Positions 32,672 through 51,552 of a stretch of 64,000 bases of DNA are shown one piece after another. Source of the stretch: Verrucomicrobiota bacterium (GTDB taxonomy: Bacteria > Verrucomicrobiota > Verrucomicrobiia > Chthoniobacterales > Terrimicrobiaceae); NCBI GenBank assembly GCA_026398275.1, contig JAPLTF010000060.1:62001-126000 (forward strand), written 5' to 3'. The notes below the pieces were generated by a model. That model did no database searches. It was not told the DNA's origin and saw nothing but the letters and a program-made list of their open reading frames with translations. The translations under genes and the position numbers were made by a program. Positions within the stretch are counted from its first letter, which is position 1, and each line of letters opens with the position of its first letter.

Positions 32672-34465
32672 TCAGAGCCAGGCGATGGCGTTGATGGCGT
32701 GGGCGTAGGGGACATCCCAGTGCTCCAGCGTATTCCACTCGATGGCGAAGCTCTCCTCCAGATACGGCGTGTCGTCCGGGCGGCCGATGAATCCGGTGAC
32801 GGTCCCTTCGGGGATCTGGGTGACTCGGAAGCCGTAGGCCACCGGCTGACGGTAGCCGATGCCGTTGCAGAGGGAGCGGTTGAGCGTGTTGTGGCCGACT
32901 GTCCATTGGATCTGCCGCTCGGCGAGCGTCCGCCAAGCGGGAACTCCGAAGAGCGCGGCGGCTTTGGCCAGCACGGCGGCGTGCGCGGTCGCGCAACTGC
33001 TCGTGCCGTGGGCGATGCCCTGCCAGTTGAACGGATGCATGAAACTGCGGATACCGAGTCCCCCACCCGCATCACGGAAGGTCTGGCGATCGGCCTGCTC
33101 CGGGTTTTTGAAGACTCCATATGGCGTGAAGGCGAAGGGATTAGAGCCGGCATCGGCGGCCAAGTAGCCATTGCAGTATAGCGCCACGGCCTCGCGGCAG
33201 CGTGCGGCATCGGCATCCAACCCCGGCAGTGCAAGCTCGACCAGTCGCAGCAAGGCCCAGGCAGGATGGCCGGCGTAGGTGATGCTCCGGTAGGCGTCCG
33301 CGCGGTCCTTCTCGTGGAAGAAGCCCGTGATGCCATCGGCGCGGACTTCCTGGCGGTCGATGAGTTCGCCCACGAGTGAGCGGATGAGGTCGGTTCCAGC
33401 CAAGTCGGGCAACTCAAGAGCAGCGAGAAGTTCCTGGGCGATGAAGAGCGTGCGCCCGTCGTGACCGCGCTGGCTTCCATATTTCCAGGCCCGTTCGGCC
33501 AGGCCACGGCAGATGACACCATCGGCATCGGGCAGGACTTTGGAGCACTGCATCTGGAGTTGCACAAAGGCGAACTGGATCTGCGGATTGTAAGTCGTGC
33601 GAACCATGCGCTCGTCACTCGAGTGGAGGCGGTTGTCGGTCCAGCGATTGTCCCGGGCGTCGCCGTAGCAGCCGGGATGATTTTCAAACCACCAATGCTT
33701 TTCATAGACGCGGTTTAACTCCACTGGCGCATCGCCGCCGCCGACGTCCTCATAAACCTGCCCCTCCGCGGTAATCATCTGCTGGAAAAGCCGGTTGCCC
33801 CAGCGAATCTCGTCCCGGGCCACCTCGCGAAAACCGGGATGGCCTTTTTCTAAGATGTGAACCAGGGACTCCAGATTGCCCTGCGTGAGCGCAAGCCATT
33901 TGCGGAAATCTCCCGCGTCGTGCCAACCGCCGGTCGCTGGCCAGTAGCTGCCATCGGTGTCGAGCACACCATCATCAAGGTGGCATGCGGGATGCACGCC
34001 AGGCACTTCGCAGCCACAACGCTGAGCGTTGAGGAAGGTCAGAAAGCCACGGGTGAGGCGGTCATAGACCCAGTCTGCGATCATGAACGGCGCTGAGATC
34101 TGGTAGTCGGTCTCGATCTGGTAGCTGCCGGGTGTGGTGAAGTCGCTGAAATCCGCCTGCCAGAACGTGCCCCAACGGGACTCGACCTTCACGAGTTCAC
34201 CCTGATAGAAGAACGAGCCGGGCTCGGGGATGAGCGTGCCTTCAAGGAGATCGAACGGGCATGGGAAGCGCTTGGAAAATCCCTCCGACTCGACGCGCTC
34301 GCGCGGCATCCGAAAGCAGTTCTGACGCAGATAAAATGGAATTCGCTCCGGCAGATTCGCATGATCTGCGCCGGGACAAAGCGTGACGGTTTTCGGTGAG
34401 TCCGGCTGGTAGCCGAGGTGAGAGAGAGCGAGTTGCATTTGTGCTATTTTGGAAAATCGGTTCAA
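32672..34465 (-). CDS. GH9-type glycoside hydrolase with N-terminal Ig-like domain
   Basis: A 597-residue protein. An N-terminal Ig-like region (about 12-125, ALSHLGYQPDSPKTVTL...GSYQIETDY) is followed by an (alpha/alpha)6 domain with the GH9 base/nucleophile motif GGWHDAGDFRKW (about 180). A late NTLNRSLCNGIGYRQP corresponds to the GH9 NPLGxSyvTGfG region, and a Glu near the C-terminus (PYLEESFAIEWN) is the likely acid. The usual HHR after the glycine-rich loop is absent, so a non-cellulosic substrate such as a xyloglucan or glucosamine oligosaccharide is possible. There is no signal peptide, which suggests a cytoplasmic enzyme. Six bases separate it from the URO-D-fold gene upstream. Confidence 0.8.
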   Translation of the reverse strand: MNRFSKIAQMQLALSHLGYQPDSPKTVTLCPGADHANLPERIPFYLRQNCFRMPRERVESEGFSKRFPCPFDLLEGTLIPEPGSFFYQGELVKVESRWGTFWQADFSDFTTPGSYQIETDYQISAPFMIADWVYDRLTRGFLTFLNAQRCGCEVPGVHPACHLDDGVLDTDGSYWPATGGWHDAGDFRKWLALTQGNLESLVHILEKGHPGFREVARDEIRWGNRLFQQMITAEGQVYEDVGGGDAPVELNRVYEKHWWFENHPGCYGDARDNRWTDNRLHSSDERMVRTTYNPQIQFAFVQLQMQCSKVLPDADGVICRGLAERAWKYGSQRGHDGRTLFIAQELLAALELPDLAGTDLIRSLVGELIDRQEVRADGITGFFHEKDRADAYRSITYAGHPAWALLRLVELALPGLDADAARCREAVALYCNGYLAADAGSNPFAFTPYGVFKNPEQADRQTFRDAGGGLGIRSFMHPFNWQGIAHGTSSCATAHAAVLAKAAALFGVPAWRTLAERQIQWTVGHNTLNRSLCNGIGYRQPVAYGFRVTQIPEGTVTGFIGRPDDTPYLEESFAIEWNTLEHWDVPYAHAINAIAWL

Positions 34466-34471
34466 CAGGAT

Positions 34472-35470
34472 TCACTGATTTGTTGTTTCATTACCTTCTC
34501 CCGAGTATTGTCCTTCATCTTTCCACGCAGCAATCATGGCCCGATAATTCTCCATCGGAACTTCCTTCTGAACCGCATTGCTGGCGCCTAATGCGAATGC
34601 GCCAAACGGCTTCTGAGCTTTGAGCAGGGATACGGTCGCCTCATACACCTGATCTGGCGTGCCGAGCAACAACAGGCCGCAATCCACGTTGCCGCAGAGG
34701 CAGAGCCGTGAGCCGACGATCTGCCGCGCCAAGCTGAAATCCATCCCGGCTGTCGCGTCAATGGCCTGAAGCGCATCCATGCCGGTCTCGGCAAGCGCGT
34801 CAAGGAGCGGCGTCAACTGGCCGTCCGAGTGCATGATGGCATACAGGCCAAGGGCACGCACGCCTGCCGCCCATTTAAGGGCATACGGCAGAACAAAACG
34901 TTGCATCTGCTCGGGATTAAAAAACGGGCCGGAGTTGTCGGCGATGTCAGAGGCCGTAAAGACGGCGTCCGCACCCAAGTCCCGGTAGCGCCGGGCGTTT
35001 TCAAGACCTGCCGCCAAAGCCTCCTCAGCCATCTGATCCACCTTCTCCGGTTCGAAAAAGAGCGCCTCGCAGAAGGTCTCTCCATAATCGGCCGCGATGA
35101 CGCCACCGGATCCCCTGATGAGCATGAGGTCATCGCCAGCCATCGCTTTGAGCAGTTCAAACTGCCGGAAACGCAAGTCTCCCGGCAAGACGTTATAGGC
35201 CAACTCACCCGGCCCCGCATACCAATAGCCACCCGGGGCGGTCACGGCGGCAAAGTGCAGCTCGTGGCATACGGACACGATGATCTCGGCGTTGGTCTGC
35301 ATGGCTTTTTCCTGTTCCGAAGAGGTCAGTCGCTCCATCTCCTCACCCAGCACGACGTGCCGTCCCGAGGCTGCATCCCAGGCATGAAACTCCAATTCCC
35401 AGATCGGAACCGCCCCCGCCGGAATCCGTCGTTCCAAGGCTGCTTTCATGTCGTTGCGTGGATGATTCAT
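34472..35470 (-). CDS. URO-D-fold protein, variant without the methyltransferase zinc motif
   Basis: A 332-residue protein with the uroporphyrinogen decarboxylase-type TIM barrel, as seen in residues about 80-310 (AGPGELAYNVL..., then GVIAADYGETFCEALFFEPEKV, then SGPFFNPEQMQRFVLPYALKWAAGVRALGLYAIMHSDGQLTPLL). The position where methyltransferases have HxC reads HSDG, and the late cysteine is absent (FALGASN), so it is not a canonical MtaA/CmuA-type enzyme. True HemE is also unlikely given the context. Such variants occur in sugar-degradation loci of Verrucomicrobiota and related phyla, with unknown reactions. It is 21 bases downstream of the esterase and six bases upstream of the GH9 gene. 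Confidence 0.72.
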   Translation of the reverse strand: MNHPRNDMKAALERRIPAGAVPIWELEFHAWDAASGRHVVLGEEMERLTSSEQEKAMQTNAEIIVSVCHELHFAAVTAPGGYWYAGPGELAYNVLPGDLRFRQFELLKAMAGDDLMLIRGSGGVIAADYGETFCEALFFEPEKVDQMAEEALAAGLENARRYRDLGADAVFTASDIADNSGPFFNPEQMQRFVLPYALKWAAGVRALGLYAIMHSDGQLTPLLDALAETGMDALQAIDATAGMDFSLARQIVGSRLCLCGNVDCGLLLLGTPDQVYEATVSLLKAQKPFGAFALGASNAVQKEVPMENYRAMIAAWKDEGQYSGEGNETTNQ

Positions 35471-35491: not shown

Positions 35492-37369
35492 TTATTTCGG
35501 GAAATCGGTTCGGAACGGCGAGGCGGGGAGTCCCGCCTTGTTGTAGAGATTGACCTCCGGGTTGTCGGCCCATCCGTAGCGGGCGGATTCGGGTGAAGCC
35601 ACCTCCGGGTTGGAGACCAAGACGTCATCACCATCGATTTTCGCAGCGGCCCAGACGAACCGCCCGTCCTCTCCCGCGATGGCGAATCCGCTCGGCGCAT
35701 CGCCACGGCAGACCAGCCCGCCGCCGACAAAATCAAACGAGAGTCGCAGCGACGAGCCTTCGCGCTTCATGGAGCGGAAGAGAGGGCCGCAAGGCACCGC
35801 ACTGCGTTGAGCATAAGTCTGGTAGAGCGCATTCAGGGCCAGACGCAGGCCGACGTCGTGCTTGTTTTTGGGGTGAACGTCGTCCGCTTCGCCGATGTCG
35901 ATAGCGACCGCCATTCCCGTGTGGGGCAGGTCGAGCGCCATGGCCTGCGCCTCCCGCAGTTCGGCCCAAGAGCTTTCCGTCGGCTGCGGTGAGCGGGCCA
36001 TGAAGTTGGCCAGTTGCACGAAATAAAAGGGGAAGTCCCCCTGGCCCCATGCGCGCCGCCAGTCCCGGATCAGAGCCTGGAAGAGTGCGCGGTATTGTTC
36101 GGCACGATCAGCGTTCGATTCCCCCTGATACCAGATGGCTCCGCGTATTGCGAAGGGCAGAAGCGGCGAGATCATGCCGTTAAACAGGACGCTTGGCGCG
36201 TTGTGAATGGATGGGACAAGACCGTAATTTGCCTCGATGGCATACCGCCATGTCCCGCCAAGGGGAATGCCTGCATCTGCGCCGCAATCCGGACAGGACA
36301 ACTTCATCTCCTCGGATGGCCCGGTCAGGCCGCCTCCATGAATGTCGCTGTGCACCCGCACGGCGATGACATTCCGGCCCGCCTTGACGAGATTCCCGGG
36401 AACCGTGTAGTTGCGCGGAAGAGACCACGCATCCTCCCGCTCGGCCATCGTGACGCCGCCAACCCGTGTGTTGTTGAAATAGGTGATGTCGCTCTTGTCG
36501 GCTGCGCCGATGGAAAGGCGCAGATCCCGCCCCTCCCAGGCCGGCGGCAGCTCGACGGTTTTTCGGAACCAGAAAATCCCGCTGTGATTGAAACCCCTGC
36601 TTTGCCAAGTGCCCGGAAGTTCCATGTCCCCCCACTCGGCGGCCGGTTCATCGATGTCGGCCCAGCCTTCCGGGTATTTCGTGTTTTTCTTGTCGCGCGT
36701 CCTTTCAGCAAGGGCCTCAAAACCCTGCCACCAAGTCCCGCGAGGGCCCAGATCCCGCTCCCATGACTGAACGATCCCGCGGGTGACGGGATTCTCCGAA
36801 AGCGCATCCCAACTCGTCCATGCCTCCGCAACCGTTCCGCCCCAGGAGGAATTGATGAGACCGATCGGAACATTCAACCGGCTGTAAAGCTCGCGACCGA
36901 AGTAATAGGCGACGGCCGAACATTTGCCTGCCGTTTCCGGCGTGCATGCGCACCATGCCGTTCCGGTCACGCCTGACTCCGGAGCCCCGGAAGGACGCTT
37001 GGGCACGGTAAAGAGGCGGATCTGTGGAAAATGAGCGCGAAGGACTTCCTCTGCTCCGTTGTGGCTGCTTGAAAGCGGCCATTCCATATTCGACTGTCCG
37101 GAGCAGACCCACACCTCACCCACCAGCACATCTGAAAGCGAAATGCTCCCGCCATCCGTCGAAGCAACATCCAGAACAGACGGCTCGGCATTCGCGGCGA
37201 GAGGAGCCAGCCGCACCAGCCAGCGCCCATCGGCGTCGGCGCTCCCCGAGGCTTGCTGGTCCGCAAAATTCACCGTCACCGCAACCCCCGCTGCTGCCGT
37301 GCCCCACACAGGAACCGGAATCCCCTGCTGCAACACCATCCCGTCCGTGAATATCGATGCGATTTTCAT
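35492..37369 (-). CDS. Sialate O-acetylesterase-type carbohydrate esterase
   Basis: A 625-residue SGNH-fold esterase. The opening IFTDGMVLQQGIPVPVWG is followed by block I with the catalytic serine, VWVCSGQSNMEWPL (about 88-101), then LINSSWGGTVAEAW, YQGESNADRAEQY, and a late DDVHPKNKHDVGLRLA with the Asp-x-x-His pair. A central Ig-like/beta-galactosidase-type sandwich (about 230-330) is present. There is no signal peptide. It would remove O-acetyl groups from sugar residues, which suits an acetylated glycan such as xyloglucan, RG-I or RG-II. The family assignment to SASA/DUF303 is strong. The substrate is inferred. Confidence 0.9.
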   Translation of the reverse strand: MKIASIFTDGMVLQQGIPVPVWGTAAAGVAVTVNFADQQASGSADADGRWLVRLAPLAANAEPSVLDVASTDGGSISLSDVLVGEVWVCSGQSNMEWPLSSSHNGAEEVLRAHFPQIRLFTVPKRPSGAPESGVTGTAWCACTPETAGKCSAVAYYFGRELYSRLNVPIGLINSSWGGTVAEAWTSWDALSENPVTRGIVQSWERDLGPRGTWWQGFEALAERTRDKKNTKYPEGWADIDEPAAEWGDMELPGTWQSRGFNHSGIFWFRKTVELPPAWEGRDLRLSIGAADKSDITYFNNTRVGGVTMAEREDAWSLPRNYTVPGNLVKAGRNVIAVRVHSDIHGGGLTGPSEEMKLSCPDCGADAGIPLGGTWRYAIEANYGLVPSIHNAPSVLFNGMISPLLPFAIRGAIWYQGESNADRAEQYRALFQALIRDWRRAWGQGDFPFYFVQLANFMARSPQPTESSWAELREAQAMALDLPHTGMAVAIDIGEADDVHPKNKHDVGLRLALNALYQTYAQRSAVPCGPLFRSMKREGSSLRLSFDFVGGGLVCRGDAPSGFAIAGEDGRFVWAAAKIDGDDVLVSNPEVASPESARYGWADNPEVNLYNKAGLPASPFRTDFPK

Positions 37370-37398: not shown

Positions 37399-38295
37399 CT
37401 ACGCGAGGGAATTCGATGCTTCAACGAAGCAGGAACGGGCTAGATCTCGGTAGAGGAGAGCCTGTGCGTAGCGGTCGCTCTCCTCGACGATCGCGCCAGT
37501 CGAGTCAGGGAAGAGACGCGCATAGTAATACTGTGCTGAAAGCAGCTCTGGCGCGAAGATGAGAACATCGCCAGGGCTGGCCATACACAGAAACCCGCGC
37601 ATAGCGAGCGTCCACATTTTCCGAAAATGCGACAGAACTTCCTCTCCGGCAGCCTTGGAGAAGTGAGGGGGGGCGGCGATGGGGACCTGCATGCTGCCGG
37701 GGTTGGCGATGCGTCCGTGCATAAAGCCGATCCGGGCGAAGATCGGCTCCATGAAAGCAAGCTTCATCGCCATGCCGCCATAGACCATTTCCTGCCCGCA
37801 ATAGTAGTGGCTGAAGTCGCCGTTGAAGCGCACCTCGGGAAATCTTTTTGTGATCTGCACGGTGCGCCACATGTCCTGGGTGATGGTGGCGCGGTGCGTC
37901 TCGATGAAGATCGGCAAGCGGTGTTTTTCCGAGGCGGTGAGGATGGCCTCGACCAAGCGAAAAATCTCGTCATCTTCTTCGATGCCCCAGCCGGCGTGCA
38001 CGGTCAGGCACTGGTTGCCACGGGAGACGTGCTTCGATGCGATTGCATCGGCCTCGACAGGAAGATTGATCCGATCGAGACCGCAGTGCGACAACCGAAG
38101 CCCGGAGGGAACAGGGCCGTCATCGGTAAGTTGAACGCCTTCGAATCCGTCAGCAGCAAGTTGATCGAATCGTTCCAACCCTGCGAGGGGCGAAGGAAAT
38201 ACGCTGTCTGCCGACAGTGCTTCAAGGTTGTAGAGATTCAGATAAACGCGAAGCTTGGGCGCGTCGTTTGATCCGTCGTTAAGGAGTTGGGACAT
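37399..38295 (-). CDS. Sugar phosphate isomerase/epimerase-like TIM-barrel protein
   Basis: A 298-residue protein of the AP-endonuclease-2 superfamily (xylose isomerase-like TIM barrel). It shows GFEGVQLTDDGP, the metal-ligand-type strands CLTVHAGWG and IFIETHRATITQDMWRTVQI, FNGDFSHYYCG with a likely Asp/His metal pair, and a final HGRIANPGSMQVP. Such enzymes isomerise or epimerise free or phosphorylated sugars. It lies 16 bases downstream of the P450 gene and 29 bases upstream of the esterase gene, so it is part of the same transcription unit and may process the sugar released after demethylation. Confidence 0.82.
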   Translation of the reverse strand: MSQLLNDGSNDAPKLRVYLNLYNLEALSADSVFPSPLAGLERFDQLAADGFEGVQLTDDGPVPSGLRLSHCGLDRINLPVEADAIASKHVSRGNQCLTVHAGWGIEEDDEIFRLVEAILTASEKHRLPIFIETHRATITQDMWRTVQITKRFPEVRFNGDFSHYYCGQEMVYGGMAMKLAFMEPIFARIGFMHGRIANPGSMQVPIAAPPHFSKAAGEEVLSHFRKMWTLAMRGFLCMASPGDVLIFAPELLSAQYYYARLFPDSTGAIVEESDRYAQALLYRDLARSCFVEASNSLA

Positions 38296-38311: not shown

Positions 38312-39454
38312 TTAGAGAGCGGTGAGTTTTACGGTCAGAGAGTCGTAGCCGACCGTCCGTTGGTAGCGTTCCTCGTGTTCGACATGCGCCTGCTCCCCGA
38401 GGATCGTGACGTAGGCCACCCGCTCCGTGAGTTTTTTCAACAGGGAGCGCACGAGAAGTCGGGCATGCGGTGCCCCGAGACAAAAGTGCGTGCCGATGCC
38501 AAAGGCCACGTGAGGATTGGGTTTGCGATCCAGTTTCACCTCGTCGGCAGCAGGGAATGCCGCCTCATCACGATTGGCTGAAGCCCAGCACAGGGAAACA
38601 CGGTGATCGGCTTTCACTGTGACGCCCTGAATATCGGTATCGACGGGGCAAACCCGTCCAATTTGAGTGATGGGCGAAATGATTCGGAAAAACTCTTCCG
38701 AAGCCAACACAATCCGCCTCGGATCTTCACGCAGGAATTCAAGGGAACCGGGATTTTTTCCGAGATAAGCCAGAATGCATGAGACCGTGTGAATAATCGT
38801 GTCCCGACCGCCCGCAAAAGCCAGGTTGGCGAATCCCATCATTTCCTCGCGGGTGAGTTTACGCCCCTGGTAAGTCGCCATGTTCAATACGCTGAAAAAA
38901 TCCTCGCCGGGATTGGACTCAACCCGGTCGAATTGCTGTTGAAAATAGCGCTCAAGAGCCTGGCCGACATCGGGACCCGACTTGCCGACTTCGAACACCT
39001 TCACCCCCCATTTGATCCAAATCTCGGCCTCGGTTTCCGGCATGTTTAGCAGGTAAGTGAGGGCGCGTGATTGGAAGGGCAACGCAAACGCCTCCACCAC
39101 CTCAAACGAGTCTTGGGCCAAAGCCAAATCAAGCAAGCGGTCCAGAAGCCCTTCGACCTTCGCGATCATTTCGGGCTCTTTAGCCCGCTGAAAGAACGGC
39201 TCCACAATCGCCCGATATTCCGTGTGTTCTGGCGGATTCGTCTCAATCGGCAATTGCCGCATGGTCCTCACTTCCTCCTCGGAAGGGATCGGAACCCGGA
39301 ACGGGGCGTCGGAACTGAATGTCTCCCAATCTTTGGCCGTCTTTACGACATCGGCATGCCGCAGGATCATCGCGATGTTTTCTCCATGGAACGGGCATTC
39401 CAGAACACCTTCCCGGTTCCTGACTTCACGAAAGGGATCGTAATTCTGATTCAT
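38312..39454 (-). CDS. Cytochrome P450 encoded within the glycan-degradation operon
   Basis: A 380-residue soluble bacterial P450. The I-helix oxygen-activation motif is AGGRDT (214-219), the ExxR motif is EFFR (254-257), and the heme-binding loop FGIGTHFCLG has the ligand Cys325. The N-terminal LPIETNPPEHTEYRAIVEPFF is a typical B-helix region. It would need a ferredoxin and reductase, and none is encoded in this window. Its ATG at 39454 overlaps by four bases the stop of a gene with a methyltransferase zinc motif, so the two are translationally coupled. P450s in marine polysaccharide loci (Zobellia, 6-O-methyl-D-galactose) perform oxidative demethylation. I infer a similar role here on an O-methyl sugar, but other oxidations are possible. 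Confidence 0.9.
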   Translation of the reverse strand: MNQNYDPFREVRNREGVLECPFHGENIAMILRHADVVKTAKDWETFSSDAPFRVPIPSEEEVRTMRQLPIETNPPEHTEYRAIVEPFFQRAKEPEMIAKVEGLLDRLLDLALAQDSFEVVEAFALPFQSRALTYLLNMPETEAEIWIKWGVKVFEVGKSGPDVGQALERYFQQQFDRVESNPGEDFFSVLNMATYQGRKLTREEMMGFANLAFAGGRDTIIHTVSCILAYLGKNPGSLEFLREDPRRIVLASEEFFRIISPITQIGRVCPVDTDIQGVTVKADHRVSLCWASANRDEAAFPAADEVKLDRKPNPHVAFGIGTHFCLGAPHARLLVRSLLKKLTERVAYVTILGEQAHVEHEERYQRTVGYDSLTVKLTAL

Positions 39455-40458
39455 AACGTCCGGGTTACCGCTGCGTGAAAGGCGCGCATGTTGATATCGC
39501 TGGTATCCGGGGTGATTTCGCATCCGGCGCTAACAATGACGCGGCCGCCGGCCTGGGTGCGACAATCTGCGACTGAGTCAGCGATTTGTGCGGGAGTCCC
39601 ATTCTGAATGACGCTCACCGGATCGGTCTTGCCGCTGAACACCTGGCGTGGCCCGAGCAGCGGCATGAACTCCGCCATCGTCGGAACTAGGTGATCCACA
39701 TCGATGATGTCGGCGCCGGTGGCGATCATGCCGAGCAGGATGGCTGACGTGTTGCCGCAGATATGGAGCTTCGCCAGCGCGCCGAGACTGTGAATGTGAT
39801 CCACCATCTGTTTCTCCCGAGAGAAGGCGAGATCTCGATACAACTCAGGCCCGATCTGAGAACAGAACGCGTCCCCGATGCCAATGCAATGCGCTCCGGC
39901 CTGAACCTGAAGGGTGATGAACTCCAACGCGCTGGAAACAATCACGTCCATGGCCTTGCCGACGGTTTCCGGATCGTCTAGAAAATCCATGGCCGCAGGG
40001 GTTACACCCCGGATGTCGGCATACTCCGCCACCGGTCCCTCGACCCAGCCGAGGATGAAATACTTGTCGCCAACGCGCCGCTTGAACTCCGCGATCTCAT
40101 TGACCCGGTTCGTGCAGCGGGCATGATCTTGCGGCTTAAACGGATTTAAGCGTGCGACAGCATCCAGATCGGGCAGGTGTCCGCCGACATCAACCGGCAG
40201 GTTATCCTCGGGATACTCAATCTGGAGACCGAACGCCGACGCTTCGCAGTAGGGATCGGACAGCACAGTCACCCAGTCGAGGTTGAAGTCATCGGCGCTC
40301 CGGATCATCGCGTCACACTTGGCTCGATAGTCGGTGCAAAACCGGCGATACTTGACTCCTGCATGGCGCGCAGCCCAGCGCATGATGATCGGGTGAAACG
40401 GCGGACGATCTACCGGTTTACCTGCAATGAAATCAAGAGTGCATTCGAGTCTGTTCAT
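39451..40458 (-). CDS. URO-D-fold protein with corrinoid-methyltransferase zinc motif (HxC...C)
   Basis: A 335-residue TIM-barrel protein of the uroporphyrinogen decarboxylase/cobalamin-dependent methyltransferase family. His232 and Cys234 (KLHICGNT) with Cys313 (VSAGCEITPDT) form the H-x-C-x(n)-C zinc site that activates a thiol or related acceptor in MtaA, MtbA and CmuA-type enzymes. The N-terminal HemE-type substrate arginines are not conserved. It may transfer or accept a methyl group, or act on a sugar. Its start overlaps the GH95-like gene stop by four bases, and its stop overlaps the P450 start by four bases (ATGA in both cases). No corrinoid protein gene lies nearby. Confidence 0.8.
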   Translation of the reverse strand: MNRLECTLDFIAGKPVDRPPFHPIIMRWAARHAGVKYRRFCTDYRAKCDAMIRSADDFNLDWVTVLSDPYCEASAFGLQIEYPEDNLPVDVGGHLPDLDAVARLNPFKPQDHARCTNRVNEIAEFKRRVGDKYFILGWVEGPVAEYADIRGVTPAAMDFLDDPETVGKAMDVIVSSALEFITLQVQAGAHCIGIGDAFCSQIGPELYRDLAFSREKQMVDHIHSLGALAKLHICGNTSAILLGMIATGADIIDVDHLVPTMAEFMPLLGPRQVFSGKTDPVSVIQNGTPAQIADSVADCRTQAGGRVIVSAGCEITPDTSDINMRAFHAAVTRTL

Positions 40459-43400
40459 GGTGTCTTTCTCTCAAATTGCCCGGAAACCGGCGGCGGATTT
40501 TCGGGTTGGTCCGTGATTCTCAAACCTCGAATAGCGAAGGGTGGCCGGGAGGATTGGGCGGACAGGAACTCCGGACGTCCGGATTCGCCGATCAGAATTT
40601 CCGGCAGAGTTTGAAACGGCTTTGTGGGAGGATCCCATAGCTCTCTTTGCAACGTGCCGCCACTGGTCAGAATCTGGGTGCGGTAGTCGGTCCAGGAAAT
40701 CTGTACCCGGTGCCACGTGTCTTTCTGCCACTTTACAATGTGAACGAGAGGCTGATCTCTCTCGGCGGTGTGGATGTTTATCGCGATGGCCACATGGGGT
40801 GGGTTCACGTAGCAATAGACTGAGAATGAGGCTCCGGGTTGTTCCCTGATCTGAGCAGTCAGGATCGGAAAGTTGCCCTTTACGTTCTCCGGGGTCCAAT
40901 CCCAAGGCGTCATGATCTCAAAATCGATGGTTCCTGCATTGGAGATGGGGGCCTTGAGGGGGAGAATGCCATTCGAGGTTTCCGCAGGACGGTCAAGGAG
41001 CGTGACGACTTTCTGAGCGGGAGGAAAGTCGGCTATGGCTCGACGTAGTTTCACTCGGGCCGGGTTGCGACCGTCCTCGGTGATTCCAATAAGGGACGCT
41101 TTGCTTTGACGATCGAGATAGGCCTCGGCAGTATCACTGGCATTCTGGACGTCCGGCCATTGCGGCCCGGTTCGCCGCTCGAACTTAACGGGGGCTGCTG
41201 CAGGAGCATCTGCAGGGGCGAGGACAACATTTGCGCCCTTTTCAAGGGAAATTTCCAAGCGATCAGGCATAGGTTCGCCTTTGGCCGTGTTGCTGCGGGT
41301 CAGGATGATCTGGCGCGAAGTCGGCCACGGATTGACCACGGTAATTTTCACGGGTCGCGAGGCGGAAATTTCGACGCGCTCGATTTCGGATGCGGACTTG
41401 CTCGCCTCGACCGTGATGCCGCCTTCGCCTTGCAGGTGGAAGCCTGCGCTCCAACCGGTGGGGACGGCTGGGAAAATCCGGACGATGCCGCCGTATGTTT
41501 GTAGGAGCATTTCCTGCACTGTGCTAGCCAGCACTCCCGAGGAATCGAACCCCGCCTCTCCGGGCAAGATACCACCCAATTCTGGACGCATCCCAGCCGG
41601 GGTCGTGCCCAGGCCCGAAGGGAACATTTGGATATTGCGGACGTATTCTTTAAAGCAACCAAGGACGGCCCGGGAGAGCCCCAACCGCGCCGCGACCGGG
41701 CCACTCCAGTCCCAGGCGTTTCCGAAGGTCCACTCGTTATTGGGGCGTGCGCGGAAGGTTGCCTCCATCACGCGGCGGTCCTCAAGAGTGGAATCCAGTC
41801 CGTAAAGCGACCAGGGATAAACTGGCTCGGTCATGACGTTTTCGGTATTGAACGTATTGCGTCGCGCAGCGAAGGAGCGCGTTTTGGACGCCGGTTTGTA
41901 AAGCGCCTCAACGGCGGGGTATCTCGTCACCGGAAAGTCATTCAACAGAACGCCGGGTTCGAGGAGATTTCCCTGCGCATTTCGAACGAGCGGCGGCAAC
42001 CCTTGGAGGGTCTCGATCCAGTGTTTCCGGAGTTCGGGATCGACCCCGAGTTTCTCTGAAGCAGCGATAGCCTTGGGGAGGACGGCTTTGAGGGCAGAGA
42101 GATCGGTGACGGAGTTCTTCACGAATCGATAGGTCTCGCGGGCATTTGAGGGAAAGATCGAGAGCTGGCCGGAGGCGTCAGGCTCGACGAATGAGAGGTG
42201 AAACTTGAGGACTTCCTTGGTAAACGGATAGGCAACCTTTTCCAGAAAGGCGTCGTCACCGGTGAAGTCATAATATTTCAACATCTGATGGGCGACTTCG
42301 GTGCCGGTCGTGTGGTAGAGCGCAATGCCTGGGTTGCTGGCTTTATCCCCCCGGCCGTCGCGTCCTATGGTTTCCTGAACACATGCCCCGGGTGCTCCGA
42401 AGATGTCCGCTGCGGCCTTCCTTGCGGCTGGGAGATTGCGGAAATACAACTCGAAAAGAGGAGTGAAGAGCTTGGTGTGCCCGGAGGCAAGGAGAGGCCA
42501 GTACAATTCGCGGGTGTTTTGATACCAGAATTCACCTCCCCAAGCGCGCCAGTCGTTGCTCAACAAGAACGCTCCACCGTTGAATTTTGCTGGTTCGGTG
42601 CCGCGGGACATCGCTCCCATGCAAAAAAGGTGCAGGTTGTAGAGGGTTTCGACGTATTCGGCAAATCCATCAGAGGAACCGAGGCTGACGTTGCTGCGAT
42701 CCCAAAATTCGTGCCACCAAGCATTCCTTGCATTAATGAGGGAGGTCAGACCGATCTGGGCCGCCTCCTTGACAACGCGCAATGCCTCGGTCCACGCCGT
42801 TTCGACCCCGGAATCAGCCCCGGCGATGAGGGGATTGGCGATGAGGAATCCTATCGTTCCCGCCTCGGAAAATCGCACCTTGGCACTCTGGGAAAACTCG
42901 TCGGGTCCGGGGACTGCCTCCAAAGTTCCACCCAGCGGCTTGAGTGCAACGGCGGAGGTGAGCTGCTTGGACTCGGCCTGGGTCACGAGGCCGATGGCTC
43001 CACCGCCCGACATGGGAAGGTCCCGCACAGCGGGGGGATTGTTGCCGGCAGTTTCCGAGCGCAGCCAACCGCGAACCCGAACAGTCCATTCGTCCGGAAG
43101 CAAAGGGCCCTTTCCATAGACAGCTACGGCATTTATGCCCTCCGCGACGAAAATTTCGATCTGCGTCGCGGAGTCCCCTGAGCCGAACGTCCACACCACC
43201 CGGCCGCGGCCCAGCTCCAGCCGACATTCCCGGAATTCGGCCTTAAGTTTGTCGTCGAGAATCAAATCGATCTCACACGAGGAACGCTGTCCTTGATTGC
43301 CGTCGAGCGAAGTGTAGAAGGCAACGGGCGTGAGTTTGATCGTGATCCCGTGCTGGGCCGAGACCATTGCTCCGAGCATTCCGTTTCCGATGGGCAGGGC

Positions 43401-43538
43401 TTCGAAGACTTCGGTGGGAAGGGAAAGATAGACAATGTCGTTCCGGCCGCTGAGAGCAGGATTGGAATCGGCAGCTGGCGCTCCGGTGGAAAGAAACAGG
43501 GTGCAGACCAGGGTCAAAGTGGCAATTCGATAGGTCAT
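40455..43538 (-). CDS. Secreted GH95-like glycoside hydrolase with C-terminal LamG-like domain
   Basis: A 1027-residue protein with a signal peptide (about 1-22, LTLVCTLFLSTGAPA). A GH95-like N-terminal sandwich (opening with the family motif FEALPIGNGMLGAMVSAQHG) leads into an (alpha/alpha)6 barrel (about 280-650, with RNAWWHEFWDRSN, EPAKFNGGAFLLSNDWRAWG and NTRELYWPLLASG, then IGRDGRGDKASNPG) and a C-terminal sandwich. From about residue 800 to 1010 is a LamG-like concanavalin fold. GH95 enzymes cleave alpha-L-fucose or alpha-L-galactose. The sequence is divergent, so specificity is open, including towards 2-O-methyl-fucose. It is the only enzyme of this operon with an obvious signal peptide. 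Confidence 0.75.
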   Translation of the reverse strand: MTYRIATLTLVCTLFLSTGAPAADSNPALSGRNDIVYLSLPTEVFEALPIGNGMLGAMVSAQHGITIKLTPVAFYTSLDGNQGQRSSCEIDLILDDKLKAEFRECRLELGRGRVVWTFGSGDSATQIEIFVAEGINAVAVYGKGPLLPDEWTVRVRGWLRSETAGNNPPAVRDLPMSGGGAIGLVTQAESKQLTSAVALKPLGGTLEAVPGPDEFSQSAKVRFSEAGTIGFLIANPLIAGADSGVETAWTEALRVVKEAAQIGLTSLINARNAWWHEFWDRSNVSLGSSDGFAEYVETLYNLHLFCMGAMSRGTEPAKFNGGAFLLSNDWRAWGGEFWYQNTRELYWPLLASGHTKLFTPLFELYFRNLPAARKAAADIFGAPGACVQETIGRDGRGDKASNPGIALYHTTGTEVAHQMLKYYDFTGDDAFLEKVAYPFTKEVLKFHLSFVEPDASGQLSIFPSNARETYRFVKNSVTDLSALKAVLPKAIAASEKLGVDPELRKHWIETLQGLPPLVRNAQGNLLEPGVLLNDFPVTRYPAVEALYKPASKTRSFAARRNTFNTENVMTEPVYPWSLYGLDSTLEDRRVMEATFRARPNNEWTFGNAWDWSGPVAARLGLSRAVLGCFKEYVRNIQMFPSGLGTTPAGMRPELGGILPGEAGFDSSGVLASTVQEMLLQTYGGIVRIFPAVPTGWSAGFHLQGEGGITVEASKSASEIERVEISASRPVKITVVNPWPTSRQIILTRSNTAKGEPMPDRLEISLEKGANVVLAPADAPAAAPVKFERRTGPQWPDVQNASDTAEAYLDRQSKASLIGITEDGRNPARVKLRRAIADFPPAQKVVTLLDRPAETSNGILPLKAPISNAGTIDFEIMTPWDWTPENVKGNFPILTAQIREQPGASFSVYCYVNPPHVAIAINIHTAERDQPLVHIVKWQKDTWHRVQISWTDYRTQILTSGGTLQRELWDPPTKPFQTLPEILIGESGRPEFLSAQSSRPPFAIRGLRITDQPENPPPVSGQFERKTP

Positions 43539-43588: not shown

Positions 43589-45733
43589 TCAGCAGACCCG
43601 GAAGACGGTGGCGGATTTGCGGTCGAGGTCGAGGTCAACAGAGCCGTTTTGGAGTTCCAACGTCACGCCGGAATCCAGGTTCACCAAGCTGGAGGCTTTT
43701 GTGTCAGCCAGCGTAATCCGGGCGCGGGCGGCTTCCGGAAAGTGGTTAAGCACAAACAGGACTCGATCCCTGGGGCCCTCGTGCAGCACCGCGCTGAAGA
43801 GATTGCGGGGCTGTTTGTAAACCCGGTGGCCGCCCTCCGATTTCATGCTTTTGCCGGTATTCCAATCCACCCAACTCACTTCGCCCTCGGCCTCCACGCG
43901 CACCTTGGCGGCGGGAGTCTCCTTGTCGAGCAGCGCCGTGAGCCAGGCGATTGATTCCAACGAATCCTCCTCAGGTTGGCCGGATCCGAGACCGACCGGC
44001 ATCCACCAAACGCTCCCCTTCCCTTTTGCAATGGGCTCGCCGGACTTCGCGGGAGCCCCGCCAAGGAACTCGAATGCAGAGCCTTTGTCGTTTCTCGCCG
44101 GCCAAGCTCCGGAAACGACCAGCTTTCCGCCGTCGTTGACATACTTTTCAAGCGCTTTGGCTGTGTCGCGGTGGATCACCGGCGAGCCTGGAAGAATAGC
44201 TAACGGAGTGGCCGGCGGAACCAACGATGCTGTCGAATGGAGAGTATCAATCACGGCCGCCTGGCGCCCGGTGTGCTCGACGACACGGAAGAGCCCCTCG
44301 TATTCCAGCGAGGCCTGGCCGCACTTCGCACCTTCAATGACGGGTTCGCCGACATAGAGGTCGTTATCATTGCACGGGAACGGGTCTCCCAAATAGGAGT
44401 GCTGATGGCTTGTGAGATCGTAAATGACCGCGAGATCCGTGGCGGGAACGAGGTCGTCCCAGCCCTGGATGGTCTCGCAGGCGAGCTTCTTCACGGCCTT
44501 GAGCACGGCCAGGCTTGGGCGCTCGTGGCCGTGAGAACTGACCGGCGCGTCGTTCCAGCAGTCGCGGTCATGAAACATGAACCACGAGATCGCCTTGCAC
44601 CCTTGTGCTAGTGCGCACAGGGCCATGAACCGCATGTGATCGTCGGAGACGCGCGTGGTGAGGATTTTGTTCCAGGTGCCCGCCATGAATTCCGCCGACC
44701 AGGTGTAACGCAGCGTCGCGTTCATCAGCTTCAGCACCCGGGCCATCGACTGGTAACCGGAGTAGCTCATGAACGAGCCCCGGTAGAAATCGTATCCCGC
44801 GACTCCAAGCGGCCCGGTGGCCTTCTCAAAGTCAGGCATCCGCGTGGGCACCCCTTCCGGACGATGAGGATTGAAGTTCGTCATGAAGGTCACATCTTTC
44901 ACGCCGTTTGCCTCGTGCATCTCACGGATGATTCCGATGTATTTGGCCATCGCCCATGTCTTGAACTCACACCAGTCGGCGTAATAGGCAAAGTCATCGC
45001 CCACCACATCCGGCACTTGACGCGGAGGCAACACACCCTCGATGGCAGCATATTTTGTCGGATACGGGAGCGCTGCGGCGCTGCCGTATTTTTCCGTGAG
45101 GAACTGGTGGTAGAAACCACCGCGACCGACGTTCACGGGGTTGTAATCGCTGGTCAGCATTCCATCCTGCACGATGTAGCTGACCTCGTTGTCGAGGTTC
45201 ACCATGGTGATGAACCCGCCGTTGGATTTGAGTCGCGGCTTGATAATCCTGTCCACCTCGGCGATCCACTTCCGGCACCATTCGAGGTATTCGGGATGCA
45301 GGTAGGAAGGCTGGGAGCCCTCGCGTTTGCCGATCCAGTAACCCTGCGTCGTGCGGTTCTGATAATCCCAGACCATGATGTTAGGATCGCCCATCACCAG
45401 CCACTCCGGATAGGCGCCATGGATCATCTCGTTGCAGCAGAACGGGCCGCAACGGAAGTTGAGCTCGAGCCCCATCTCCTGCACCAGCTCAAGGAAATGG
45501 TAGAGGTTGAGATTTGGATTCGTCCTGCCCTCGAAATCGAGCTCGCCCGCCGGATGCTCCGCGCTGGGCGGTCCCACGAGATGGGTTGCCCACTGGACGT
45601 AGGTGGTGACGTTCTTCAGCCCTGCTTCCTTGAATTTCTGAAGGATCGGCTTCCAGTAGCGTTTTTCGAGACGGAAGTATTGGATTTCGCCGCCGAACAC
45701 GCCGGCGCAGTTGATGGATGGTGTTGATTTCAT
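43589..45733 (-). CDS. GH35-like beta-galactosidase
   Basis: A 714-residue protein with a GH35/GH42-type TIM barrel (about 12-400). The opening GGEIQYFRLEKRYWKPILQ is the GH35 G-x-x-x-Y-x-R motif, followed by RCGPFCCNEMIHGAYPEWL (R-x-G-P-x-x-x-x-E region), the acid/base strand NLDNEVS, and a nucleophile-bearing WSAEFMAGTW. A glutamine-amidotransferase-like domain with VNDGGKLVVSGAWP and a beta-sandwich end the chain. There is no signal peptide. The ATG at 45733 is chosen because upstream codons precede the conserved region without signal features. It probably trims terminal beta-galactose from imported oligosaccharides. Confidence 0.8.
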   Translation of the reverse strand: MKSTPSINCAGVFGGEIQYFRLEKRYWKPILQKFKEAGLKNVTTYVQWATHLVGPPSAEHPAGELDFEGRTNPNLNLYHFLELVQEMGLELNFRCGPFCCNEMIHGAYPEWLVMGDPNIMVWDYQNRTTQGYWIGKREGSQPSYLHPEYLEWCRKWIAEVDRIIKPRLKSNGGFITMVNLDNEVSYIVQDGMLTSDYNPVNVGRGGFYHQFLTEKYGSAAALPYPTKYAAIEGVLPPRQVPDVVGDDFAYYADWCEFKTWAMAKYIGIIREMHEANGVKDVTFMTNFNPHRPEGVPTRMPDFEKATGPLGVAGYDFYRGSFMSYSGYQSMARVLKLMNATLRYTWSAEFMAGTWNKILTTRVSDDHMRFMALCALAQGCKAISWFMFHDRDCWNDAPVSSHGHERPSLAVLKAVKKLACETIQGWDDLVPATDLAVIYDLTSHQHSYLGDPFPCNDNDLYVGEPVIEGAKCGQASLEYEGLFRVVEHTGRQAAVIDTLHSTASLVPPATPLAILPGSPVIHRDTAKALEKYVNDGGKLVVSGAWPARNDKGSAFEFLGGAPAKSGEPIAKGKGSVWWMPVGLGSGQPEEDSLESIAWLTALLDKETPAAKVRVEAEGEVSWVDWNTGKSMKSEGGHRVYKQPRNLFSAVLHEGPRDRVLFVLNHFPEAARARITLADTKASSLVNLDSGVTLELQNGSVDLDLDRKSATVFRVC

Positions 45734-45758
45734 GGATTGGAAGACTTGACTGTTTTGT

Positions 45759-45857
45759 TTACCGATGCCGGCCGTATTCGTGTGCCGCCTCATACATGGC
45801 GACGACGTGACTGAATGCGTGCAGAACACGTTCGCGTGATGTGAGGTGCTTGGTCAT
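45759..45857 (-). pseudogene. URO-D gene remnant: fused N- and C-terminal ends
   Basis: A 32-codon frame starts with an ATG that overlaps the GH78 stop (ATGA), so it sits exactly where a coupled gene would begin. The first half (LTSRERVLHAFSH) resembles the typical N-terminus of URO-D-family proteins (LTSRERVLxALxH). The second half (AMYEAAHEYGRHR) resembles their C-terminal helix (AxYEAxxEYGRY). I infer a large internal deletion of a former third URO-D gene, leaving an in-frame scar. It lies alone in the 120-base gap between two glycoside hydrolase genes. Confidence 0.5.
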
Positions 45858-48103
45858 ATCTTTGAATGATGGGTTCCGGGTGCCAGTTCCATCGACGTGC
45901 CATCGGGACTACGCAAGGTCGCCGTGACGGCGGGCGGGAGTTCGACCTCAAGATGAACCTCTCCATCCCGCCGCTCCCATCCGCACCGGATCACGCCGTG
46001 GGGCGTTTGATGGGTGGCTCGGGCCGAGTCCAGACCGGCTACCGCATGGGGTTGGATCAGCGCATGGCGGAATCCCGGACGGTCGGGATCGGGCGCGATG
46101 CCAGCCAGATGGTGGATCATCCAGGCGCCGAGATCGCAGAACGATGGATGGTTGCGCGAGTCCTTGCCCGCCCAGTCTTCCCAAAGGGTCGTGGCGCCCT
46201 GGGCAATCCAGTGCATCCAACCGGGATACTCCGGCTGGGTGACGAGCTTGTAGGCGAGTTCCATCTGCCCGTTTTCAGCCAGCGCCCTCGTGACATACTT
46301 GATACCAAGAATACCGATTTCGGGGCGAACCCCGGTGGCCTCGACGGATTCGACCAACCGGTGGACGACCGTCTCTTTTTCAGCGGGGTCCACCAATCCC
46401 TGGTAGAGCGCACACGCTTGGGCGGTCTGCTGGCCATCGGCGTAAACTCCGTTCCCACGATAGAACGCACGATTGAATGCAACGTGAATCTCCTCGGCCA
46501 GACTCTTGTAGGCCATGGCGTCGTCGTCGCGCCCCAACAGGCCGGCGAAGCGGGCAAGAAGCACGGCATCGACATAATAATAGGCAGTGGTGGTGAGGGC
46601 GACGGGCGCCATCCGCTCCCTGTCCGGATGGTTCCAGTCGCCGAGACCGAATTCCACGATGTGCCCGCTGGCCATACGAGCGCAGTAGTCCACATAGCGC
46701 TTCATCGGTTCGTAGTGCCGCTCGATGGCCGTGCGGTCGCCCGTGTAAAGGTAGATATACCAGGGGATGAGCAGAAACGCGCTGTCCCAGGCCGGACCGC
46801 TGTATCCGTTGAATCCCCAGCCGGAAGTGGGAATGATCGCCGGAAGCTGCCCGCTCAGCCGTTGGGCATCGGCAAGGGCCAGAAGCCACTGTTGGTAGGC
46901 GGTCCCGGCGTCAAAGTGTAACAGGCCAAACTCCGCAGCCAAGTGGGTGTCCGCCGTCCACCCGTTCTTCTCGCGGTGAGGACAGTCGGTGGGAATGCCC
47001 ACGAAATTCCCCCGATAGGACCACACTGCCGCATGGTGGAGACGGTTGAGTTGCGGATCGGAACTCTCAAATGAACCGATCCGTGAAAAATCGGTCTGAA
47101 CAACGCGACCTTGCAGCATCAGGGTATCCAGCACCTCGTCCGGACCTTCGACTTGGACATATTGAAACCCGTGATAGGTGAACCTTGGCTCCCAACTTTG
47201 AGCGGACGCGCTCTCTTTCAGGATGTAGCGATCCGTCTGAGGCTCTCCCCCTTTGATATAAACGCCGATATGCTTCTGATCCACCCGACGATCTTCGGCA
47301 AGCCGCTCGCCGTAGCGCAGGGTCAGTCGGCTGCCTTCGGAACCGGTGACGGCGATGTGGGCCCATCCGGTGATGTTCTGTCCCAGGTCGAATACCCGCA
47401 CACCGGGCCCGACGCTCCATGATGACACGGGCTCGAGAGTTTCCACCACGCGGCACGGCGGCGCGATCTGGCGATCCAATACTCCACCTGGCGGCGATAC
47501 CACCACCGTTTGCTGCCACGCACTATCGTCAAAACCCGTCGCAGCCCAACCGGGCAGTTCCAGCCTGGCGTCGTAATGCTCCCCGTTGCGAAGAGCATCG
47601 AAGGTGATCGCGCTGTCGGCGAACTTCCAGGAGGAATCACTCACAACCCGGAGATTACTCCCGTCCCCAAGCGTAACGTCGAGTTGCAGCAACAGCTTGG
47701 GATAATCCCGCCACGAGGCGTAGTGAAACTCCCAGACAGTCGGCGTGTGGCAGTTATACCAACCGTTCCCCAGCATGACCCCCAGCACGTTCTCTCCGAC
47801 TTGGAGATATTCAGCCACGTCATGGTCCACATAGGCGACCCGCTGTTCATACTGGGTAACGACCGGACTGAGCACCTCGGTGCCGACTTTTTTCCCGTTG
47901 ATGTAAAGTTCATGGTATCCGAGTCCGCAGATCCGCACGCAAGCAGACGCAACCGGCGCATCCAGGCGAAATGTTTTTCGCAACAACGGGGCCGGCAACA
48001 CCTCGCTGCCCTGCCAGCCGGCATGCCAGCCGGGAACTTGCCGGCCAATCCACAAGCCGGTCCAGGACCGAACGTCATCGTAGTGTGCTATTTCATGACT
48101 CAT
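45854..48103 (-). CDS. GH78 alpha-L-rhamnosidase
   Basis: A 749-residue protein with the GH78 domain order: an N-terminal sandwich (LLRKTFRLDAPVASACVRICGLGYHELYINGKKVG, a Bac_rhamnosid_N-type motif), a second sandwich (DLGQNITGWAHIAVTG), then the (alpha/alpha)6 catalytic domain (about 330-660) with the motif GIPTDCPHREKNGWTADTHLA that carries the catalytic Glu/Asp residues, and HWIAQGATTLWEDW, and a C-terminal sandwich. There is no signal peptide. The ATG at 48103 begins MSHEIAHYDD. It hydrolyses alpha-L-rhamnosides, found in pectin (RG-I, RG-II), glycosides and algal polysaccharides. It follows the GH42 gene by 13 bases. Confidence 0.92.
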   Translation of the reverse strand: MSHEIAHYDDVRSWTGLWIGRQVPGWHAGWQGSEVLPAPLLRKTFRLDAPVASACVRICGLGYHELYINGKKVGTEVLSPVVTQYEQRVAYVDHDVAEYLQVGENVLGVMLGNGWYNCHTPTVWEFHYASWRDYPKLLLQLDVTLGDGSNLRVVSDSSWKFADSAITFDALRNGEHYDARLELPGWAATGFDDSAWQQTVVVSPPGGVLDRQIAPPCRVVETLEPVSSWSVGPGVRVFDLGQNITGWAHIAVTGSEGSRLTLRYGERLAEDRRVDQKHIGVYIKGGEPQTDRYILKESASAQSWEPRFTYHGFQYVQVEGPDEVLDTLMLQGRVVQTDFSRIGSFESSDPQLNRLHHAAVWSYRGNFVGIPTDCPHREKNGWTADTHLAAEFGLLHFDAGTAYQQWLLALADAQRLSGQLPAIIPTSGWGFNGYSGPAWDSAFLLIPWYIYLYTGDRTAIERHYEPMKRYVDYCARMASGHIVEFGLGDWNHPDRERMAPVALTTTAYYYVDAVLLARFAGLLGRDDDAMAYKSLAEEIHVAFNRAFYRGNGVYADGQQTAQACALYQGLVDPAEKETVVHRLVESVEATGVRPEIGILGIKYVTRALAENGQMELAYKLVTQPEYPGWMHWIAQGATTLWEDWAGKDSRNHPSFCDLGAWMIHHLAGIAPDPDRPGFRHALIQPHAVAGLDSARATHQTPHGVIRCGWERRDGEVHLEVELPPAVTATLRSPDGTSMELAPGTHHSKI

Positions 48104-48116
48104 AAGGTGAATGACT

Positions 48117-50228: not shown

Positions 50229-51541
50229 AGTATTTCTTTCTGAAGGGTGATCGGGGTCGGGATCGGAGCGGCAAGTTCCCTGCTCATCAGGCGGTGATGA
50301 ATAATGAACATGACCAAGCCGACTGTGCTCATCACCATGCCGATCGTGAACCCGACAACAAAATTGCTGCCCGCCGCAAAAATGATCCAGCCGGCCACCA
50401 GCCCCAGCAGGGCGTTGTAGGCATTTCGGAAACAGGAATTTGTCGAGGTGTAAGAGCCGATGTCTTGCCGGGGTGCGCTCTTGTAGATCATGATATCCGC
50501 CCCGGCGTAGAGCGGCATAATTGTCGTGGTGGCGAGTGAGAGGATGATGAGTCCGCTTTTGTCATGCACATTGAGGACCCAGAGGTAGCAGGCCATCTGC
50601 CCGAGCCAGAATCCGATGACCACCCGGAACCCGCCAAACCGGTCGATCACCCATCCGATGGGGTAAGCCAGCGCGATGTTAAGAAGCCCGGCCCAAGAGA
50701 GGGCTGAAAAAATCTCCCCGCGTTCAAGGCCTAATGTTTCCTTGGCCCAGAACCAGATCCAGGCATTGTTCATCGCGAGATAGCCATTGATCATGCCCAC
50801 CCCGGCCACCAGCCAGAAAAAGCGCTTGTCTTTGCCAGCCACCTTGAACGTGGACCAGGGCTTGAATTTTTCGGTGGCAGGATAACGGATCGGCGGCTCC
50901 TTGATCCAGAATGCGCACAGAGTGGTCAGGGTCATGATGCCCGCGCCTAGGACATACGGAAACCATTCGGCCACCTTGATCATGTCTCCCGCGTAGCGCA
51001 TGGCCACGAACCCGACCAACCCGCCGGCTACGGCAAGGACCGAGTTTGCCCGCGCGAGAACGTGGCTAGGCACGCAATCGATGCTCAGCAATGGAAACGT
51101 GCTGTTCTTGATGTCCATGAAAAACAAGGAGGTCACATAGAGGAGGACCAGCACCCAGAGAAGGTGGGCTTTGTCGAAAAACGGGAACAGCGCAACGGAC
51201 GCGATGATAAATGGCGCTGAGAGAAACAGGAACGGTTTGCGGCGCCCGATCCGGCTTACCGTATGGTCGCTCTTCCAGGAAAAATACATCACGAGAAATG
51301 CCAGGGCGATTCCATTGGTGGAGTTGATCGTGGCCTGGATGTTTTCCCGCAGCCCGAGTTCGAGCAGGCGAAGAGCAATCAGGGGGGTGACAATACCTGC
51401 GACCACCCCCCAGCCCACATTGCAGAGCCCGATCAGGGCAATGTTCCGCCACATCAGCGGCTTGTCGGCGTAGTAAGCCGCCAGCGCGGGGCTGTGCTCC
51501 GTCTGGGACAATTCCGGGGATGTGTCGGGTGTCATGGACAT
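50225..51541 (-). CDS. GPH/MFS-type sugar symporter
   Basis: A 438-residue protein with about 12 membrane segments. The GPH (glycoside-pentoside-hexuronide:cation) style is seen in WGVVAGIVTPLIALRLLELG, the SDHTVSRIGRRKPFLFLSAPF loop (the D-x-x-x-x-R-x-G-R-R-x-P motif) and IGWVIDRFGGFRVVIGF. The start MSMTPD at 51541 (or the second Met at 51535) is preferred to the longer frame. It is the only transporter in the operon and is the likely importer of the oligosaccharide or monosaccharide. Lack of SusC/SusD-type genes is normal for Verrucomicrobiota. Confidence 0.85.
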   Translation of the reverse strand: MSMTPDTSPELSQTEHSPALAAYYADKPLMWRNIALIGLCNVGWGVVAGIVTPLIALRLLELGLRENIQATINSTNGIALAFLVMYFSWKSDHTVSRIGRRKPFLFLSAPFIIASVALFPFFDKAHLLWVLVLLYVTSLFFMDIKNSTFPLLSIDCVPSHVLARANSVLAVAGGLVGFVAMRYAGDMIKVAEWFPYVLGAGIMTLTTLCAFWIKEPPIRYPATEKFKPWSTFKVAGKDKRFFWLVAGVGMINGYLAMNNAWIWFWAKETLGLERGEIFSALSWAGLLNIALAYPIGWVIDRFGGFRVVIGFWLGQMACYLWVLNVHDKSGLIILSLATTTIMPLYAGADIMIYKSAPRQDIGSYTSTNSCFRNAYNALLGLVAGWIIFAAGSNFVVGFTIGMVMSTVGLVMFIIHHRLMSRELAAPIPTPITLQKEIL

Positions 51542-51552
51542 GCCGCTATCTT

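Follow-up and report, generated by a model that had tools for sequence, protein, structure and literature searches.

Background

Many sugars of plants, algae and cyanobacteria carry methyl ethers, which shield them against breakdown. The sole route for sugar methyl ethers that was found in the open-access literature is an oxidative one, which depends on cytochromes P450 of marine Bacteroidota. No corrinoid route for sugar methyl ethers is known to us so far, and no description of corrinoid sugar demethylation was found in the open-access literature.

In the marine systems, the P450s found in Zobellia and Formosa work together with a ferredoxin and a ferredoxin reductase and release galactose and formaldehyde from 6-O-methyl-galactose (PMC10033563). 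On the corrinoid side, a His-Cys-Cys ligand set marks the sulfur-type methyltransferases of the URO-D superfamily, and in the O-demethylases one or both of the cysteines are replaced by carboxylates or non-ligands (PMC10418091).

Here we describe a window of 64,000 nucleotides from a Verrucomicrobiota genome, i.e. the whole stretch of DNA that was analysed, in which a P450 gene is directly joined to the gene of a URO-D superfamily protein (URO-D1). The original prediction, made from the letters of the window, held that both proteins together remove a methyl ether from a sugar, and named no earlier description of such a pairing as known. No published description of a P450/URO-D pairing was found in the open-access literature.

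Results and discussion

The operon

The genes of the operon and their overlap were assigned as follows:

32672-34465, minus strand: GH9-like glycoside hydrolase (Pfam PF00759)
34472-35470, minus strand: second URO-D superfamily protein (UROD2), ligand positions His-Asp-Asn (Pfam URO-D, E 1e-21)
35492-37369, minus strand: SASA-family carbohydrate acetylesterase (Pfam PF03629)
37399-38295, minus strand: xylose-isomerase-like TIM-barrel protein (AP_endonuc_2, 19.3 bits, below the cut-off)
38312-39454, minus strand: cytochrome P450 of the carbohydrate-active type (380 aa), putatively demethylating O-methyl sugars (Pfam p450)
39451-39454, minus strand: ATGA overlap of the URO-D1 stop codon TGA and the P450 start codon ATG (sequence read directly)
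39451-40458, minus strand: URO-D superfamily methyltransferase, MtaA/CmuA-like (URO-D1; Pfam URO-D, E 7e-47)
40455-43538, minus strand: GH95-type glycoside hydrolase, 4-nt overlap with URO-D1 (Pfam PF22124)
43589-45736, minus strand: GH35/GH42-type beta-galactosidase-like protein, start inferred (Pfam PF01301, PF02449)
45854-48112, minus strand: GH78 alpha-L-rhamnosidase-type protein, start inferred (PF17389, PF08531, PF05592, PF17390)
48117-50228, minus strand: GH42-type glycoside hydrolase (Pfam PF02449, PF08532)
50225-51550, minus strand: MFS sugar-type transporter, start inferred (Pfam MFS_1, MFS_2)
51553-53967, minus strand: GH31 glycoside hydrolase (Pfam PF01055, PF21365)

The annotation confirmed the glycan setting that had been read from the letters, namely glycosidases, an acetylesterase, an isomerase-like protein and a sugar transporter. 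Upstream of the pair, on the same strand, lie the GH95-like, GH35/42, GH78, GH42, MFS and GH31 genes; the isomerase-like, acetylesterase and GH9-like genes follow downstream. Along the run GH95, URO-D1, P450, isomerase-like, SASA, UROD2 and GH9-like the gaps measure -4 to +29 nt. The ATGA overlap of URO-D1 and P450, which had been noticed before, is real, and translational coupling of the two genes is likely from this arrangement. The P450 starts with the ATG at 39454, the longer start proposed by the ORF finder (39523) falling within the URO-D1 gene. Ferredoxin, reductase and corrinoid protein had been called missing from the operon, and none of them was seen among its annotated genes. Scans for promoters and terminators gave no more matches than in shuffles.

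For the isomerase-like protein, a relative at another locus (L079) reaches 42 bits with AP_endonuc_2, above the cut-off, and at three loci besides this one a relative is the direct neighbour of the P450. The UROD2 gene was overlooked in the first reading of this DNA, as was a second URO-D/P450 pair of the same genome.

The P450

The product of 38312-39454 matches the Pfam p450 profile with an E value of 4e-17, and the previously reported motifs were found again: AGGRDT at residues 214-219, EFFR at 254-257 and the heme ligand Cys325. The heme cysteine, the ExxR motif and the acid-alcohol motif of the I-helix are all intact, and when 15 Verrucomicrobiota sequences are aligned, AGGRDT, E254, R257 and C325 do not vary. 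The AF2 model is weak at the B-C loop and the heme loop.

Among solved structures, 6g5o/6g5q is the best relative (344.6 bits; 46.1% identity over 373 aa, above the 40% identity taken as the limit of the 6G5O family), compared with 143.5 bits for the second-best solved P450. The top Foldseek match is likewise the PDB entry 'The structure of a carbohydrate active P450'. The carbohydrate-active family of 6G5O is presumably CYP236. Since identity to 6G5O/6G5Q amounts to 46% and no other solved P450 comes close, sugar O-demethylation is the likely role; on the basis of this similarity we regard the protein as very probably a sugar O-demethylase, which agrees with the original prediction and places it with the sugar-demethylating P450s and not with terpene or steroid enzymes. 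A terpene, steroid or macrolide clade was rejected, the next-best solved relatives scoring 200 bits lower.

URO-D1 and UROD2

URO-D1 possesses the URO-D fold according to both the Pfam match and the comparison of its AF2 model (pLDDT 87.5) with 4AY8; the closest structure is of the MtaA type (4AY7/4AY8, Z 36.6), with 21% identity to MtaA. With the mtaA_cmuA model TIGR01463 it scores 122.8 bits, which is under the curated cut-off of 235.4. The haem-pathway uroporphyrinogen decarboxylase was rejected as an assignment, the score with the hemE model being 59.8 bits against a cut-off of 303. Another URO-D of the same genome reaches 385 bits with Pfam URO-D.

The intact HxC...C zinc site, which had been recognized in the first reading, is formed by H232, C234 and C313, and these align with the zinc ligands of MtaA 4AY7. 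The His-Cys-Cys set is kept in the alignment of all five P450-linked relatives of the URO-D1 subfamily, among them one that is divergently oriented, 2.6 kb from its P450 on the opposite strand (L183). As this is the sulfur-type set, it is probable that URO-D1 methylates a thiol and does not cleave the sugar ether. With moderate confidence we regard URO-D1 as a corrinoid-linked, thiol-side (MT2) methyltransferase.

The part of the original prediction in which URO-D1 itself takes the methyl group off the ether did not find support. Such a cleavage onto a corrinoid protein, beside or instead of the P450, would be in line with the UroD superfamily including the corrinoid O-demethylases OdmB and VdmB (PMC10418091), and with the linkage of corrinoid genes to the pair in relatives (see below). 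However, both zinc cysteines, of which one or both are replaced in enzymes of the OdmB/VdmB type, are present in URO-D1, and according to the same source the His-Cys-Cys set of URO-D1 and all five relatives is the sulfur type, so we consider this explanation quite unlikely.

UROD2 carries a His-Asp-Asn set, which is nearer to the oxygen type and makes an oxygen-type or a degenerate site possible. A division of labour could accordingly be imagined, in which UROD2 would be an oxygen-type MT1, URO-D1 the thiol-side MT2 and the P450 an O2-dependent alternative. Both URO-D genes do lie in one tight gene run, and a carboxylate replaces the first cysteine in UROD2. However, UROD2 covers the C-terminal part of the URO-D profile alone (131-317), no demonstrated methyltransferase turned up among its relatives, and URO-Ds of a similar kind, with other sets than His-Cys-Cys, are common in this genome, which leaves this division unlikely. 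The reading that we prefer remains the one with a P450 acting on the sugar and a URO-D1 acting on the thiol side.

Recurrence of the pairing

The sample comprised 133 distinct Verrucomicrobiota P450 loci, and a P450 counted as paired when a URO-D gene lay on its own strand at a distance of no more than 500 bp. Pairs were found at seven loci (the window, L049, L055, L059, L079, L116 and L187), compared with 0.4-0.6 expected by chance if URO-D genes occur at 3.0 and 4.7 per Mb; the corresponding Poisson value, P < 1e-5, treats the loci as independent, ignores their relatedness and is thus overstated. The search for conserved adjacency that had been proposed therefore showed that the pairing recurs, and the possibility that it is unique to this genome was rejected. 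An eighth locus is L183 with its URO-D1 relative on the opposite strand. Five of the seven same-strand neighbours belong to one subfamily. The URO-D gene comes first in the window, L055, L059 and L187, and the P450 gene comes first in L049, L079 and L116; in the URO-D beside the P450 of L059 the ligand positions read His-Cys-Asn.

The genome of the window contains two P450s and 22 URO-D matches, and in most of the latter the ligand positions read His-Cys-His or His-Asp-His. Both P450s have a URO-D neighbour. The second pair is located on another contig (L055:958-3146, contig C20) with a divergent AraC gene, and its URO-D has His-Cys-His as ligands.

On the P450 tree, the pairing changes at least seven times, suggesting that it is recurrent and was not inherited once. 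In the outgroup sequence (6g5o) of this tree two residues and the C-terminal end are missing, which affects the outgroup alone. At 126 of the 133 loci no URO-D occurs within 500 bp, from which it follows that the P450 does not need a URO-D. Across the 133 loci, other genes also recur beside the P450: a 2Fe-2S ferredoxin at 8 loci, an AraC regulator in divergent orientation at 7 and an isomerase-like gene at 4.

These observations also bear on the explanation by operon shuffling, according to which the P450 would demethylate the sugar, URO-D1 would have an unrelated role, and their adjacency would stem from the frequency of URO-D genes in glycan loci. The 22 URO-D matches of this genome, the repeated changes on the tree and the fact that the majority of the P450s stand alone speak for it. 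Seven same-strand neighbours instead of the expected 0.4-0.6, five of them from one subfamily, and the pairing of both P450s of this genome speak against it, and we hold shuffling to be highly improbable. The recurrent pairing, which in two relatives is accompanied by the other corrinoid genes, suggests that one cell treats the methyl groups of sugars in two very different ways.

The P450 family is widely distributed, with members in 15 of 213 genomes sampled from the order, in 24 of 388 from the phylum and in 48 of 384 from the class. Across the 388 genomes of the phylum its co-occurrence with the URO-D1 type is weak: the P450 is present in 24 genomes, the URO-D1 type in 41 and both in 4, where about 2.5 would be expected. 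The idea of a strict co-occurrence across the phylum is weakened by these numbers.

Two further observations were made during this survey. Most loci from L061 to L140 carry a 64-70% identical P450 alone and outside of glycan clusters, many of them in Verrucomicrobiaceae-type genomes. At L268:6089-10192 four consecutive URO-D-like genes are found, in a genome without a carbohydrate-active P450.

Corrinoid partners

The alternative that the corrinoid partners are encoded elsewhere had been left open by the original prediction, and elsewhere in the genome they were found. In detail, an MtaB-like protein and a stand-alone corrinoid protein share one contig, a reductive activator (RACo domains) and a homocysteine S-methyltransferase share another, and all of these contigs differ from that of the URO-D1/P450 operon. 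Corrinoid protein and reductive activator thus occur in the same genome, which is the combination looked for with an MtaA/CmuA-type enzyme. The MtaB-like methanol methyltransferase and the corrinoid protein are located together with AraC-like regulators at L189:5699-9887 (contig C32), where a rhamnosidase-like and a Gfo/Idh-type reading frame were identified by eye within about 8 kb.

In relatives, corrinoid genes lie beside the pair, in accordance with the assignment of URO-D1 to the corrinoid-linked kind. One contig of the L079 genome holds the isomerase, P450, URO-D1, ketohexokinase, DUF1638, activator and AraC genes as well as further corrinoid genes, namely those of a homocysteine methyltransferase, a corrinoid protein, a URO-D and MtaB. 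The L116 genome shows, consecutively, a sugar transporter, P450, URO-D1, an oxidoreductase and an isomerase-like protein, both identified by eye, then DUF1638 and the activator, the latter 3.7 kb from the P450; a corrinoid protein and MtaB are found about 12 kb further. At L339, where the P450 has no URO-D beside it, activator and DUF1638 lie at a distance of about 5 kb. Corrinoid modules linked to a P450/URO-D pair were seen at L227:4423-17959 and L228:1-18001. In L079, L116 and L339 the gene immediately ahead of the activator is DUF1638, and this position suggests that it may have a role in corrinoid activation.

Among the 133 loci, three activators are found within 8 kb of the P450, compared with 0.13 expected. 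An activator is present in 6 of 7 genomes with a pair and in 6 of 31 genomes with the P450 only (Fisher P 0.002, a value which ignores the relatedness of the genomes), and the stand-alone corrinoid protein occurs in the same 12 genomes. A tree-controlled sign test of pairing against activator pointed in the same direction and was not significant, the independent pairs being too few. Relatives of URO-D1 without a P450 stand within corrinoid clusters at 4 of 34 loci (L275, L277, L281 and L290), and at the other 30 there is no such cluster within about 8 kb.

It could also be that a single methyl-rich glycan offers the two proteins separate substrates, a methyl ether for the P450 and, for the corrinoid side, for example methanol released from methyl esters, via MtaB. 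MtaB-like methanol methyltransferase genes indeed accompany the corrinoid protein here and in relatives. Yet no MtaB was found within 8 kb of any of the 133 P450 loci, and the overlap of URO-D1 and P450 suggests a closer coupling, which makes separate substrates improbable.

Redox partner of the P450

The model for P450-linked ferredoxins has no match in this genome. The Fer2 profile has two, in reading frames of 244 and 847 aa. At L183:935-5830 the P450, reductase and ferredoxin genes overlap each other, and the AraC and URO-D1 genes are divergent.

Proposed function

We propose that the operon would import and trim an O-methylated glycan. The P450 would oxidise the methyl ether of the released sugar with O2, yielding the free sugar and formaldehyde, and the co-translated URO-D1 would take the methyl group of a methylated corrinoid protein and transfer it onto a thiol, for example homocysteine, drawing on the corrinoid module encoded elsewhere in this genome. 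P450 and URO-D1 would thereby provide methyl groups with two outlets within one catabolic operon, one oxidative and one by transfer. From their common operon we infer that the two enzymes deal with methyl groups of one and the same glycan, and any functional coupling between them, like the reactions, the substrate and the thiol acceptor, is put forward in the same sense. As a whole, this combination of sugar oxidation by the P450 and thiol-side transfer by URO-D1 in one glycan operon appears to us slightly more probable than not. If any protein of the corrinoid side takes the methyl group off the sugar, UROD2 and MtaB are candidates. RG-II, which the original prediction had brought up, and likewise any particular methyl sugar, would be a guess as the substrate.

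Should the P450 step be connected with corrinoid transfer through the paired URO-D proteins, one-carbon metabolism would receive methyl groups from methylated sugars, and one operon would combine a chemistry that requires oxygen with one that is sensitive to it. A more far-reaching version, which we regard as tentative and rather unlikely, is that the operon combines two demethylation chemistries for O-methyl sugars, an O2-dependent one of the P450 and a corrinoid-dependent one of the URO-D proteins, for oxic and anoxic glycan use by facultative Verrucomicrobiota. If true, this would include the first corrinoid route for sugar methyl ethers that is known to us.

Comparison with known systems

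The P450 resembles the 6-O-methyl-D-galactose demethylases of Zobellia and Formosa (6G5O/6G5Q) in its sequence, in the heme, ExxR and AGGRDT motifs and in its place among glycoside hydrolases and an esterase. Whereas a ferredoxin, a ferredoxin reductase and an alcohol dehydrogenase are encoded beside the P450 in the marine loci (PMC10033563), none of them is adjacent here and a URO-D gene is found instead. The three-component system of P450, ferredoxin and ferredoxin reductase is complete in L183, but no such ferredoxin was found in the operon of the window or in its genome.

With the corrinoid O-demethylases OdmB/VdmB, MtvB and MtoB, URO-D1 shares the superfamily, and the corrinoid protein and activator are of a like kind. 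These enzymes lack one or both zinc cysteines, act on aromatic methyl ethers and belong to anaerobes, and no P450 is mentioned beside their genes in the sources consulted; URO-D1, in contrast, keeps His-Cys-Cys.

With MtaA, the soluble coenzyme M methyltransferases and the MtaA-like proteins (Mlps), URO-D1 agrees in fold and ligands and in having a corrinoid protein and an activator elsewhere in the genome. However, its identity to MtaA is 21%, its mtaA_cmuA score is below the cut-off and, unlike MtaA and the Mlps, it is found not in sulfur or methanogenesis clusters but in glycan loci together with a P450.
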